Shown: piece by piece, positions 28,720 to 34,636 of the stretch
How positions within the stretch are numbered: position 1 is the stretch's first letter
Layout: each line of letters opens with the position of its first letter
Translations under genes and position numbers: made by a program
Notes under the pieces: generated by a model
Told to the model about the DNA's origin: nothing
What the model saw: the letters and a program-made list of their open reading frames with translations, nothing else
Databases searched by the model: none
Assembly (NCBI GenBank): GCA_002712005.1
Contig: PASP01000020.1
Coordinates: 1 to 64,000 of the forward strand
Reading direction: 5' to 3'
Length of the DNA: 64,000 bases
Source: Halobacteriovoraceae bacterium
GTDB lineage: Bacteria > Bdellovibrionota > Bacteriovoracia > Bacteriovoracales > Bacteriovoracaceae

Positions 28720-30243
28720 ATGAAATACGAAATCAAAGGTAATTATTTTAATGGACGCTATAATCCTTCAAGCTCTAAAGGCCCAGAAGGTGTTGAGCAT
28801 TTTATCAAAAGAGAATGTCCAGGTGATACTTCTCTTGTTCTCTGGGAAATGCCAATTGCGTATAGTCAAATCGAAGAAGTGGTCGCCAGTGCTGTAGATG
28901 GTTTTAAATTTTGGAGACGTCTTCCTTTAAATGAAAGAATTAACTTTTTAAAAAAGTATCAAGAACAGGTTATTGCTAAACAAGACTTAATCGCAGAGGC
29001 CATTGCTCTTGAAAGTGGAAAGCCACTGTGGGAAGCCAAAACAGAGGTTGCTTCAGTTATAGGAAAAGTCGATGTTACAATCAATGACTCTCTTCCAAGA
29101 GTAGCTGATATCAACATAAGCGAAATTGCTGCTGGCACAAATGGTTCTGTACACTTTAGACCTCTTGGACCAAGTTTAGTTATTGGACCTTTTAATTTTC
29201 CATGCCACCTTGCGAATACTCAAATTTTAAGTGCTCTAATTACTGGAAACTCATTCATTTTTAAACCTTCTGAAAAAGTGGCCTATAGTGCACAACTTAT
29301 GATTGATTGTTTTCATGAAGCAGGCTTTCCCAAAGGTGTTGTAAACTTATGCCAAGGGGACGGAGAAGTTGCTCGTCGCCTAACAGGTAGCAAAGATATT
29401 AAAGGTGTCTTCTTCACGGGAAGTAAGGAAGTTGGACTTAATATCCTAAAAACAACTCACACTGATCTTTCCAAGCTCGTGGCCCTAGAACTCGGTGGGA
29501 AAAACTCTAGTATTATCCATAAAGATGCGAATACAGACCTGGCTTTAGAAGAACTTCTTAAAGCATGTTATCTCACTGCCGGTCAGAGATGTACTTCAAC
29601 AAGTCTAATTCCAATTCATAGAAGTGTGATGAATGAGTTTATGGATAAATTTCATAATCTTAGTAAAAAAATCATTGTCGATCATCCTACTGACCACGAA
29701 AAGACACCTTTTATGGGTCCTTTGGTTGATCAACGCTCTCTTGATCAGTATCTACTTTTCATGGGCATGGCCAAACGAGAAGGTTTCGAAGAAATTATGC
29801 GCGGTAAACAACTTACTCGTAAAACAGAGGGATACTATGTGAGTCCTTCGATACACTTTGCAGAAAAATGGATTGAAGACTCTCACTTTCTACAAAGTGA
29901 AATCTTTGGACCTAACACTACATTCATTCCATACGATGATATTGAAGAAGCTATCCAAATAACCAACTCAACAGAATATGGACTTGCTGCCGGAGTATTT
30001 ACTGCCGATAAAGAAGTATTTACAAAATGTTTAGAAGAGATTGATAGCGGATTAGTGAATCATAATCGATCAACTTGTGGAGCCAGTGCAAAGCTTCCTT
30101 TTGGTGGAATTAAAAATTCTGGAAACTACCATCCAGCTGCTGTTGCCATGATTGATGCTTGTGTTTATCAAAAGGCAAGTCTTCAGTGTGAAGATGCAAA
30201 AGCGACAGGGCTAGATAAAATAACGGGTCTTGAACTCGACTAA
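28720..30243 (+). CDS. astD: Succinylglutamate-semialdehyde dehydrogenase
   Basis: A 507-residue NAD-dependent aldehyde dehydrogenase, last oxidation step of the AST pathway. Seen are LGPSLVIGPFNFPCHLAN, KGVFFTGSKEVGLNIL, the catalytic Glu in LVALELGGKNSSIIHKD, and the catalytic Cys in TAGQRCTSTS. Its place behind astA supports the AstD call over a generic aldehyde dehydrogenase. Its stop shares four bases with the stop of the convergent gene. Confidence 0.92.
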   Translation: MKYEIKGNYFNGRYNPSSSKGPEGVEHFIKRECPGDTSLVLWEMPIAYSQIEEVVASAVDGFKFWRRLPLNERINFLKKYQEQVIAKQDLIAEAIALESGKPLWEAKTEVASVIGKVDVTINDSLPRVADINISEIAAGTNGSVHFRPLGPSLVIGPFNFPCHLANTQILSALITGNSFIFKPSEKVAYSAQLMIDCFHEAGFPKGVVNLCQGDGEVARRLTGSKDIKGVFFTGSKEVGLNILKTTHTDLSKLVALELGGKNSSIIHKDANTDLALEELLKACYLTAGQRCTSTSLIPIHRSVMNEFMDKFHNLSKKIIVDHPTDHEKTPFMGPLVDQRSLDQYLLFMGMAKREGFEEIMRGKQLTRKTEGYYVSPSIHFAEKWIEDSHFLQSEIFGPNTTFIPYDDIEEAIQITNSTEYGLAAGVFTADKEVFTKCLEEIDSGLVNHNRSTCGASAKLPFGGIKNSGNYHPAAVAMIDACVYQKASLQCEDAKATGLDKITGLELD

Positions 30244-30833
30244 GCTTGCTTTTTATTGACGAGAACACCTAGGGAAGAACTATGCCCTAGGTCTTCCTTA
30301 TTTCTCTTTTGTGTTTGAATATCTACGTCTGAAGTATTCTTATAAAGAGACATGACTTCCATCTTCTTTATCATCGAGTACGAGTTATATAGTTTTTTCT
30401 TCTCTTCTATTATCATTGTGGAAGTTTGCTTATTATTCGCAGAACTTGCTTTCTTAGGAAATCTCTTTTGTCCGAAGATATTCTTATTCATTTTCTCGAA
30501 GGTACGAGCGTAGGCTTCTAGTAACTTAAGAACTCTTTGTCCGCTTTGAAAGGTGAATCTCTCCCTTGGAGCTTCAGCTAAAGGAATTTCCACCGCCTTT
30601 TCAGGGTCTTCATTAAACTTGAGAATTTTTGCACCTTCGTCTGAACTTTCAGCAGCAGCTTCTTCTCTCTGTTTCTGAATAATGTCTTTATAGCTCTTCC
30701 CCTCCACATCTGCAGATAAGAGAACCGATAGCGGAATTTTCTTCTGCCCGGAATGAGAAGTCGTAAGCTTAGATATTTCCTCTGGAGTGAGAATTCTAAG
30801 CAAAGACATAATAAGATGACCTTTAAACTCCAT
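30240..30833 (-). CDS. Unknown soluble protein
   Basis: A 197-residue basic protein with an N-terminal MSLLRILTPEEISKLTTSH, a middle helix (GQRVLKLLEAYARTFEKMNK) and a Lys/Ser/Asn-rich tail. No leader or membrane segment. I do not recognise it. GGAGG precedes the ATG at 30833; an internal ATG at codon 9 is possible. It stands alone between astD and tRNA-Asn. Confidence 0.65.
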   Translation of the reverse strand: MEFKGHLIMSLLRILTPEEISKLTTSHSGQKKIPLSVLLSADVEGKSYKDIIQKQREEAAAESSDEGAKILKFNEDPEKAVEIPLAEAPRERFTFQSGQRVLKLLEAYARTFEKMNKNIFGQKRFPKKASSANNKQTSTMIIEEKKKLYNSYSMIKKMEVMSLYKNTSDVDIQTQKRNKEDLGHSSSLGVLVNKKQA

Positions 30834-31166: not shown

Positions 31167-31613
31167 ATGAATGAAAAAGAATATCTTCAAGAACTTACAC
31201 GCTCTATACCTGTAACCTCTAGTCTTGATATAGAAATTCATCAACTCACTTCTACGGGAGTTAGCCTCAAAGCACCTCTCAATACTCATATCAATTACGA
31301 AGGGACAGCTTTTGGAGGCTCTTTAAATACCTTGTGTGTCTTGGCCGGCTACTTAAGCGTTCACCATATGTTTAGCAGCAAGAAAATCTCCTTTGATTCG
31401 TTAGTCATACAAAATAGTTCTATTAACTATCTCAAACCTGTAACAAAAGACTTTATGGCCCGTGCAGAAATACAGAACCCTGAAAAAGTTATTGATCATT
31501 TCCAAAGAAGATCAAAGGCCAGAGCTGAACTCAACTGTACCGTCACCCCCCTTGAGACTTCTCAAGAAGTACTATGTAAATTTACCGCACGCTTTGTTAT
31601 AAGCTCGCGATAA
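31167..31613 (+). CDS. Hotdog-fold thioesterase (YiiD C-terminal type)
   Basis: A 148-residue protein with the hotdog thioesterase pattern: GVSLKAPLNTHINYEGTAFG, GGSLNTLCVLAGYLSVHHMF, and SSINYLKPVTKDFMARAEI. The family hydrolyses acyl-CoA or acyl-ACP; the substrate here is unknown. 70 bases separate it from the next gene on the same strand. Confidence 0.8.
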   Translation: MNEKEYLQELTRSIPVTSSLDIEIHQLTSTGVSLKAPLNTHINYEGTAFGGSLNTLCVLAGYLSVHHMFSSKKISFDSLVIQNSSINYLKPVTKDFMARAEIQNPEKVIDHFQRRSKARAELNCTVTPLETSQEVLCKFTARFVISSR

Positions 31614-31683: not shown

Positions 31684-33069
31684 ATGTTTAATTCTTCCTT
31701 TATTGCAGATAAAACTCAATCTTCTTCGTCTCAGTTTTTAATAGATTCCTACGAACAATTTCTCTCTGAAATTAGAGAAGATGTTAACGAAGGCGAGACC
31801 TCTGAATTCTTAAGTGAAGATTTCCAAGAAGAATTTCAAAAACTAGTCGCAAGGCAAGAACTTGATCAGTTTAGTGCAAAAAACTTCTATTGGTTAAACC
31901 TTATTGACTCCCTCGTTGATACCCTTTTCCTTCTAGAAGAAGGCGACTATTCTGCGGAATCCATCATTGAATACTTTGAAGCTTCTGAGTTTTTAGGGTT
32001 TATAATCACCGAATTAGAAATGGAGCAATCTCCAGAAGAAGTCATCAACACCATTAAAGAAATTCAAGAATTCCAAATCGTAAGTTTTTTTCATCTACAA
32101 TTAAGTAATAAAAAATGGAATCCTTCTGGCCCCGTAGCGTATCGTCCAGTTCCTGAACTTGGAGAAGGATCTTTTGGCATTTACCTTGGAAAAAATAATG
32201 ACTTCTATCCTTTACCGGAGAATATAGAAGCATCCGTTCTTCCTGTAATTAAATACAATCCTCTTGATCAATTTATTCATATAGATCTTGAAGGAGAAAT
32301 ATTAGAGATTCGCTCGGTTGAGATTCATAAGAATCAATTCAATCAATCTCCAGTGCTGCTTATGAATGCAGAACTTTATAATCATTCTCAAAAGCAAATT
32401 CTGATTGATAAATTTGTTAAGGCCAATCAGATTATCTCAGAACTTTGTCCAAGCCTCTATACGAGACTTCTTCAATTTACTGATTACGTTGTCCCCTTAG
32501 AAACAGAAGAGCTTGTAAGCTACTCCATGAAAGTTCTCCCTAAACATTCCATGATTAATCTATTTAATAGAGATCTTGTCGACCTCGTGGATGATCTTCT
32601 TCACGAAAATGGCCATCACTATCTTAATGGCTTACTTGAAGGTGAAGAAGAGCTTATATTCGAAGACGATGAAAAGATTTTCTTTTCTCCTTGGAGACGA
32701 TCTCTACGTCCTATTCGTGGTATTTACCATGGTGTTTTAACTTTCTATTGGGCTTATCGCTTATTTAAAGAACTAAGTCTTTCTGATCAACTTTCTGAAT
32801 ATTTTAGTTCTGAAGAAAAAGATAAGATCTATTTTCGTCTTTTAGAAGAAGAATTCTTATTAAATGCTTGCCAAGAAGAACTCGATAAAGCTTTTCAGAT
32901 GAATAAAATCACAGACTATGGCAAAAGTTTTTACGAAAGCATTTATGAAGAACTCAATGAGGATCGCTCACTGTGTGAAAAAATAGAAAGCAATCTTGAT
33001 AAAGCTTCACTTGATAAACTGAACTCACTTAAGCAAGATGTCCTCTCTAAGAAAGATCTTCAGGCCTAA
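31684..33069 (+). CDS. HExxH protein resembling alpha-ketoglutarate-type peptide beta-hydroxylases
   Basis: A 461-residue acidic protein. Near the centre it has HENGHHYLN (H307, E308, H311), then FFSPWRRSLRPIRGIYHGV (PWR 336-338, RPIRG 342-346, H349). The spacing of HExxH, PWR, RPxRG and a following His-Gly is what I remember of the 'HEXXH motif' peptide-modification family, now described as iron/2-oxoglutarate peptide beta-hydroxylases. No leader or membrane segment. No precursor peptide or radical SAM partner is adjacent. A zinc peptidase is the main alternative. Confidence 0.65.
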   Translation: MFNSSFIADKTQSSSSQFLIDSYEQFLSEIREDVNEGETSEFLSEDFQEEFQKLVARQELDQFSAKNFYWLNLIDSLVDTLFLLEEGDYSAESIIEYFEASEFLGFIITELEMEQSPEEVINTIKEIQEFQIVSFFHLQLSNKKWNPSGPVAYRPVPELGEGSFGIYLGKNNDFYPLPENIEASVLPVIKYNPLDQFIHIDLEGEILEIRSVEIHKNQFNQSPVLLMNAELYNHSQKQILIDKFVKANQIISELCPSLYTRLLQFTDYVVPLETEELVSYSMKVLPKHSMINLFNRDLVDLVDDLLHENGHHYLNGLLEGEEELIFEDDEKIFFSPWRRSLRPIRGIYHGVLTFYWAYRLFKELSLSDQLSEYFSSEEKDKIYFRLLEEEFLLNACQEELDKAFQMNKITDYGKSFYESIYEELNEDRSLCEKIESNLDKASLDKLNSLKQDVLSKKDLQA

Positions 33070-33076
33070 GATCTAC

Positions 33077-34636
33077 TTATTCAAGATTATTTAAAATCTG
33101 TTGCATCTCATTTGCAGGCATGAGGTCACCTTGAAGTGATGCCTGTTCAATACCTTTCTTCAAAGTTTTCTTAGCTGCATCTTCATCGTTTAACTTTAGG
33201 TAAGTCTTACTCAATAAAACGTAGGCAACAGAATATTTTGAATCAGCACTGAGAACAGACTCAAGAGCTTGTCTTGCTTCATCAAATTTAGCCTTTTTAA
33301 AATAGATATCGCCCATACCAAAATTGGCCAATGTATCTTCAGGGTCTATTTCTAGTACCTGCTTAAACATTTCTTCTCTTCTTTCAAGCTCTTTGATTTC
33401 ATTTTCAAGCTTCTCTTCTTGTGCTTTCTTTGCTTGGGCTTCTTTCCCAAACATGGAAAAGGATTTTACAGTTGCTTGGGCTTTCTCCTCTTCTGCTTCC
33501 TCTATTTTCCCCATTTTCATATAAAACAAACTTTTATTGGTGTGGGCCATAATAGAATCAGGGTTGGCCTCAAGAACCTCATCCATCAAGGAGATTCCCT
33601 TTTCGAAGTCACCAAGCTGTCCGTAAATTACACCAATTGTCTCTAGTGCATCTTCATGATTGGGAACAATCTCTAAAATTTCTTTAAATATGGGAAGGGC
33701 CTTTTCTACGCTCTCCTGGTGAAAGACTTTAACCCCTTCCTCGTAGAGATGATTTACCCACTCATCGTGGGAAAAATCGCCTCCAAATGGAATATAGTGA
33801 ACTCTAGAACTTACATCATCGAGATGCATACGCATCTGATCGACGCGAAACTTTCTCACAGAAGATATTAGTAAAAACTTACGCCCCTCAAACTCCGTAG
33901 CGCCCAAAACCTTCCCCATTCTTTCTTCATTCACATAGATATTTTCACCTAATGTATAATGAGGAAATCTTTCATCGCACTCAACTAATATAGGAAAGTG
34001 AGCACCGCCTCTACGTGATTCGATTTTAGAAACTGTTTCTTGTCCTAGATAACAACCTTTCTTATGAGATACAGAATTAAGGTTGAGAATGGTATCTGTA
34101 ACCAGCTGATCTAGCGCTACATTGAGGTTAAGAAGTGGAATCCCTCTTAATAGAGCAAGATCTCTATATTCTTTTTCAGATAAGGCCTTCCCCTCAACAT
34201 CGTTACTTTCTAATATATAGCAGGGTAAGCCTCCATAAATTCCTTTAAAGAGAAAGGACTTTGGCCCACTGTAACTGAAGACCAAGGAGAGCTCATTATT
34301 TTTAAAATTAAGCTCTACATCATCCATGATGATGTATTTATCTAAGTCTTCTTTTAGAAAATCAATTAGCTCCTTTTCTCCAATGGCCAAAAATTCTTCA
34401 TCGTTTTTCTTCGCTAGAATAAAAAAAGACTTCACTCGTCCTGTTCTATCTAGACGAGCACTCTGTTGAAACGAACAACTCTCAAGTGCATCGACATCAG
34501 ATGTCAGTTGACCATTTAGAAATCTTTGGGCGTCAGGACCTTTAATTTCAAGATATGAAGTTTCTATGGATTCTCTGTTTGAGAATGCAATATGAGTATG
34601 ATTAAATTTTTTAAAGGGAAAGTTGCTAAAATTCAT
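33077..34636 (-). CDS. YgfZ/IBA57-type folate-binding protein fused to TPR repeats
   Basis: A 519-residue fusion. Residues 1 to about 260 are a GcvT-like YgfZ domain with the signature KKGCYLGQETVSKIESRRG (Cys195). YgfZ/IBA57 helps mature [4Fe-4S] proteins. From about residue 290 the rest is TPR-like (HEDALETIGVIYGQLGDFEK, IMAHTNKSLFYMKMGKIEEA, TLANFGMGDIYFKKAKFDEA) with a Lys/Glu-rich helix between. Its ATG overlaps the stop of the A-type carrier gene (TAATG). YgfZ normally stands alone at about 330 residues, so the TPR part is an extra. Confidence 0.88.
   Translation of the reverse strand: MNFSNFPFKKFNHTHIAFSNRESIETSYLEIKGPDAQRFLNGQLTSDVDALESCSFQQSARLDRTGRVKSFFILAKKNDEEFLAIGEKELIDFLKEDLDKYIIMDDVELNFKNNELSLVFSYSGPKSFLFKGIYGGLPCYILESNDVEGKALSEKEYRDLALLRGIPLLNLNVALDQLVTDTILNLNSVSHKKGCYLGQETVSKIESRRGGAHFPILVECDERFPHYTLGENIYVNEERMGKVLGATEFEGRKFLLISSVRKFRVDQMRMHLDDVSSRVHYIPFGGDFSHDEWVNHLYEEGVKVFHQESVEKALPIFKEILEIVPNHEDALETIGVIYGQLGDFEKGISLMDEVLEANPDSIMAHTNKSLFYMKMGKIEEAEEEKAQATVKSFSMFGKEAQAKKAQEEKLENEIKELERREEMFKQVLEIDPEDTLANFGMGDIYFKKAKFDEARQALESVLSADSKYSVAYVLLSKTYLKLNDEDAAKKTLKKGIEQASLQGDLMPANEMQQILNNLE

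Follow-up and report, generated by a model that had tools for sequence, protein, structure and literature searches.

The closest described relatives of the gene analyzed here are peptide hydroxylases of the aKG-HExxH family, which depend on 2-oxoglutarate (alpha-ketoglutarate, aKG), bind iron through a conserved HExxH motif (PMC13060819) and hydroxylate Asp, His, Phe, Gln and Pro residues of peptides (PMC12636437, PMC13060819). The characterized members found all act on precursors of ribosomally synthesized and post-translationally modified peptides (RiPPs): ChlH modifies Asp and His, PflC and PosC modify Gln with cutting of the backbone as well, PesO modifies Pro, and hydroxylation of Phe has also been reported for relatives (PMC12636437, PMC13060819). 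Within ChlB-HExxH of Chlorogloeopsis, ChlH is the aKG-HExxH domain (PDB 8s5f; PMC12636437). The gene described here lies at positions 31684..33069 (+) of a 64,000-nucleotide stretch of DNA (the window) from a Halobacteriovoraceae bacterium (assembly GCA_002712005.1, contig PASP01000020.1) and is predicted to encode a stand-alone HExxH-type Fe(II)/2-oxoglutarate peptide or protein beta-hydroxylase, below called the hydroxylase. We consider it probable that the product is an active cytoplasmic enzyme of the aKG-HExxH family that acts in trans, with a cell protein being a likelier substrate than a RiPP precursor.

The open reading frame (ORF) is intact, running from an ATG start through its stop codon, and encodes 461 amino acids; stops are abundant on the opposite strand. 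It is present in a single copy in its own genome, and the protein has no apparent signal peptide.

Family membership, predicted fold and conserved residues

The original prediction, made from the sequence without database searches, had recognized the layout of 2-oxoglutarate peptide beta-hydroxylases in this protein, and both sequence and structure comparisons bear this out. The hydroxylase scored 49.1 bits over residues 247-357 (E 6e-13) against TIGR04267 (aKG-HExxH-type peptide beta-hydroxylase), above the curated cut-off of 40 bits, and this was its sole NCBIfam match. No Pfam family, peptidases included, matched at E below 0.28. When the PDB was searched by sequence, only ChlH (8s5f) and SjiH (22nu/22ob) were found, and a profile of 30 orthologues matched ChlH at E 3e-13 over profile positions 245-387 and SjiH at E 4e-4.

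The structural comparison gave the same two proteins. An AlphaFold2 model built on the 30-sequence alignment had a predicted local distance difference test score (pLDDT) of 89.9 and a predicted template modeling score (pTM) of 0.87. Foldseek matched it to 22ob (E 3e-8) and 8s5f (E 3e-7), all other matches having E values of 0.7 or worse. With VIA-align, ChlH (8s5f_E) aligned at Z 21.8 over 290 residues with a root-mean-square deviation (rmsd) of 3.6, and SjiH (22ob) at Z 20.2 over 358 of 409 residues with an rmsd of 4.6. The next match was a helical protein at Z 9.4, while zinc peptidases and other zincins, which have distant folds, reached Z 7.2 at best. The structural alignment begins at residue 4 of the model and, thus, the N-terminal part is also common to the solved members. 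Since the curated hidden Markov model, the profile matches and the structure all agree, membership of the aKG-HExxH family is firm.

The original prediction had also pointed to HENGHH and a second block about 25 residues later. Both are present, HENGHH at residues 307-312 (32602..32619, +) and SPWRRSLRPIRGIYH at residues 335-349 (32686..32730, +); SPWRRSLRPIRGIYHG begins at residue 335, about 23 residues after HENGHH, and the original description is correct. Conservation was scored on the 30 orthologues, which belong to the same taxonomic family, with identities of 43-48% within the genus and as low as 27% beyond it. Thirty-three residues were invariant, among them H307, E308, N309, G310, H311, H312 and N315 of the first motif and S335, P336, W337, R338, R342, R345, G346, Y348 and H349 of the second. 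Judging from this alignment, conservation of both motifs exceeds chance by far. HENGHH aligns to HEHRH in ChlH and HEFQH in SjiH, and the PWR/RP..G..H block likewise aligns to these hydroxylases. Neither of the outcomes that the original prediction had named as speaking against it, a zinc peptidase as the best structural match or a PWR/RPxRG block foreign to the hydroxylase family, was observed. A third block, VSYS at residues 278-281 (32515..32526, +), is shared with ChlH (VSFS), and its V278, S279 and S281 are invariant.

Because the HExxH motif binds iron in this family (PMC13060819), H307 and H311 are the predicted iron ligands, accompanied in the motif by E308. R338, R342 and R345 are predicted to bind 2-oxoglutarate, and H349 is a possible third iron ligand.

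The hydroxylase resembles ChlH in its fold, its HExxH motif, its VSxS block and its SPWR..LRP..G..H block. It differs from ChlH in standing alone, without RiPP genes, and the two are 16% identical over the structural alignment. With SjiH it shares a nearly full-length fold, HExxH and PWR..LRP..G, but SjiH has Gln in place of the H349 that is invariant in this subfamily. No paper on SjiH, or about HExxH proteins of Halobacteriovorax, turned up in the literature library searched. PflC/PosC and PesO (Pseudomonas, Peribacillus) belong to the same named family and were likened to the hydroxylase by description only; unlike the gene here, theirs sit in RiPP clusters with precursors.

The orthologue in genus g24

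A natural variant bears on the predicted active site. The three genomes of genus g24 (G029, G117 and G118) carry a hydroxylase orthologue at the corresponding locus. The copies in G029 and G117, which are intact, have jointly lost H307 (now Gln), E308 (Ser) and H311 (Leu). In the second block, they have replaced S335, all three residues of PWR (P336, W337 and R338), R342 (Cys), R345 (Leu), G346, Y348 and H349 (Arg). P286, S289, H312, N315 and G413 are retained. All of the predicted catalytic residues are therefore gone from these forms (locus L164, 3789-5222; locus L175, 3669-5144; both +). The proportion of nonsynonymous differences (pN) between the G029 and G117 ORFs is 0.22, compared to 0.76 for synonymous differences (pS), so the ORFs are still under selection and the g24 orthologue is a retained pseudoenzyme rather than a gene in decay. 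The ORF of the third genome appears in two pieces, the first of which runs into masked bases, and this copy may or may not be intact.

Their loss in concert marks these residues as one functional site, and provides natural evidence for the single Fe/2-oxoglutarate site predicted from the alignments. The pseudoenzyme thus offers a ready-made map of the predicted catalytic residues.

Inheritance, locus and proposed substrate

Two alignment-derived patterns were run against 84,980 species genomes and found 77 loci. These were mostly labeled Bacteriovoracaceae, Bacteriovorax, Halobacteriovorax or Bdellovibrionales, with a few broad labels and one Nitrospira. The subfamily is nearly restricted to Bacteriovoracaceae, with one copy per genome, and full-length matches in a sample of the phylum were confined to that one family. 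Of the 129 genomes in the order, 87 had a TIGR04267 match over the cut-off, and by hand tally 86 had the long form. The Nitrospira-labeled contig (L155) carries an orthologue as a 557-amino acid ORF, which may reflect mis-binning of the contig or a transfer.

Pairwise distances of the hydroxylase correlated with those of each neighboring gene (r 0.49-0.79, the largest shuffled value being 0.40), which indicates vertical inheritance. Within the genus, pN was 0.24-0.42 and pS 0.70-0.84, so the gene is under purifying selection; pN and pS are quoted instead of dN/dS because synonymous sites were saturated. The subfamily is passed on in the manner of a core gene, and its clade has predatory bacteria among its members.

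The same neighbors were found in about 30 of the 32 orthologue regions. On one flank lie an arginine succinyltransferase-like gene, a presumed aldehyde dehydrogenase gene and a small divergent gene. On the other are a convergent gene for a YgfZ/GCV_T-like protein with TPR repeats (33077..34636, −), which follows almost without a gap and serves as a syntenic anchor, an IscA-type gene, what we take to be a cobalamin adenosyltransferase gene, and a fused acyl-CoA mutase gene. The names of the dehydrogenase and the adenosyltransferase were assigned by reading their sequences and not by a tool match. No RiPP precursor, maturase, exporter or transporter was seen within about 10 kb of approximately 30 orthologues among ORFs of at least 70 amino acids, a cut-off that would miss shorter precursors. 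The claim that the gene is not in a RiPP cluster therefore held, and it extends across about 25 genera.

We infer metal and co-substrate use, the hydroxylation and the kind of substrate from these comparisons. In the proposed mechanism, H307 and H311, and perhaps H349, would hold the iron and the arginines of PWR and RPIRG would hold 2-oxoglutarate. A polypeptide residue would receive oxygen on one of the carbons of its side chain, probably at the beta position. The substrate would be encoded elsewhere and modified in trans. The stability of the locus speaks for a cell protein, rather than a natural product, as that substrate. A substrate of this kind had been suggested originally, and it would follow from the non-RiPP context. 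We also propose, with slightly less than even confidence, that the enzyme is a housekeeping HExxH/2-oxoglutarate hydroxylase of a conserved Bacteriovoracaceae cell protein rather than of a natural product, and that one genus has converted it into a pseudoenzyme retained for a non-catalytic role. If true, this would extend a recently described oxygenase fold from RiPP biosynthesis to the modification of cellular proteins. Other 2-oxoglutarate oxygenases are known to hydroxylate ribosomal proteins.

Several points weigh against a cellular protein hydroxylase. The exclusive action of the characterized relatives on RiPP precursors is one, and another is that PflC hydrolyzes peptides without a leader and with several metals (PMC12636437). 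Also, the gene is missing from about one third of the order's genomes, so the predicted reaction is dispensable.

The first of these points would fit an enzyme that modifies a small RiPP precursor whose gene lies in another part of the genome, as would the position of the relatives' shorter paralogues near secreted, repeat-containing proteins. We regard this as unlikely, given the lack of precursor, maturase and exporter genes around the orthologues at the ORF length used and the differences between the long form and the clustered short paralogues. RiPP clusters usually move and vary, whereas this gene behaves as a vertically inherited chromosomal gene.

A more specific substrate was considered in the small divergent gene, which encodes a 197-amino acid protein (30240..30833, −) and is divergently transcribed in most orthologue loci. 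This protein has no Pfam or NCBIfam match, and its body is variable but its extreme C-terminus is conserved. The tail, GVLVNKKQA (30243..30269, −), follows the consensus G-[VIL]-L-[VIL]-[ND]-K-K-[QH]-x and has an information content of 3.2-4.3 bits at each of positions −9 to −2, compared to about 1-2 bits in most of the body. Its Asn/Asp or Gln/His could be what the enzyme hydroxylates, since these residue types are near those hydroxylated by known members, and the tail is loose in a model that otherwise has helices, although the model is of low confidence (pTM 0.27). A DNA pattern for the tail matched 91 of the 129 genomes, once in each except for two copies in G152, and a reversed-pattern control matched none. 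In a hand tally of these genomes, uncorrected for kinship or incomplete genomes, the tail and the long hydroxylase occurred together in 73, the tail alone in 18, the hydroxylase alone in 13 and neither in 25. The exceptions argue against a link. Around 12 genomes keep the tail unchanged and the flanks intact with the hydroxylase absent from the locus, and nearly all of them are without any TIGR04267 match. The pseudoenzyme genus g24 also keeps the tail, while genus g33 has the hydroxylase (elsewhere in the genome in G038) and no tail was found there. Conservation of the tail without the enzyme indicates that it is independent of the hydroxylase and has another cause, making the tail a weak candidate and this explanation improbable.

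Finally, it is very improbable that the protein is a metallopeptidase that cuts peptides with zinc bound at its HExxH site. The zincin-like arrangement of the family and the activity of PflC could be cited for this, but no Pfam peptidase was matched, the best zinc peptidase fell far below ChlH in structural alignment (Z 7.2 vs 21.8) and the orthologues invariably carry the PWR/RPxRG block seen in the hydroxylases.

Short paralogues and other genes

Relatives also encode short HExxH paralogues of 244-288 amino acids (loci L072 to L079; 9630-10412, −, in L072), and the three tested pass the TIGR04267 cut-off. Compared to the hydroxylase, they have the same HExxH and RP...H block (for example, in L072, L075 and L077, with lengths of 261-288 amino acids) but lack most of the N-terminal part. 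The paralogues recur in clusters beside a secreted protein resembling oligopeptide-binding proteins and, except in L078, whose contig ends, a histidine kinase. A sigma-54 response regulator is also present at some of the loci, as is a small secreted protein. Together, these loci look like a module for peptide modification and sensing. Secreted proteins with tandem repeats, which are candidate repeat substrates, adjoin short paralogues or sit two genes from them. The repeat is SESRVEIL in L072 (11431-12315, −) and L073 (11571-12356, −) and VIEAADLVAKKLRDR in L080 (10726-11130, −), where the paralogue scored 33.6 bits against the TIGR04267 cut-off of 40.

The twitch radical SAM protein that had been noted at 916-2538 (−) of the window is real, with 214.6 bits against NF033640 (cut-off 170). 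It was rejected as a partner of the hydroxylase because of its distance of 29 kb and its patchy, differing distribution: it was found in 11 of 98 relatives at E 1e-30 and the hydroxylase in 38 of 98 at E 0.001, thresholds that differ between the two counts. One relative (G006) has about 15 kb of inserted DNA, including recombinase-like genes, between its hydroxylase gene and the small divergent gene. In the window, a YiiD_C-type thioesterase gene (31167..31613, +) lies upstream of the hydroxylase at a distance of 73 bp; none of the other loci compared has such a gene there.
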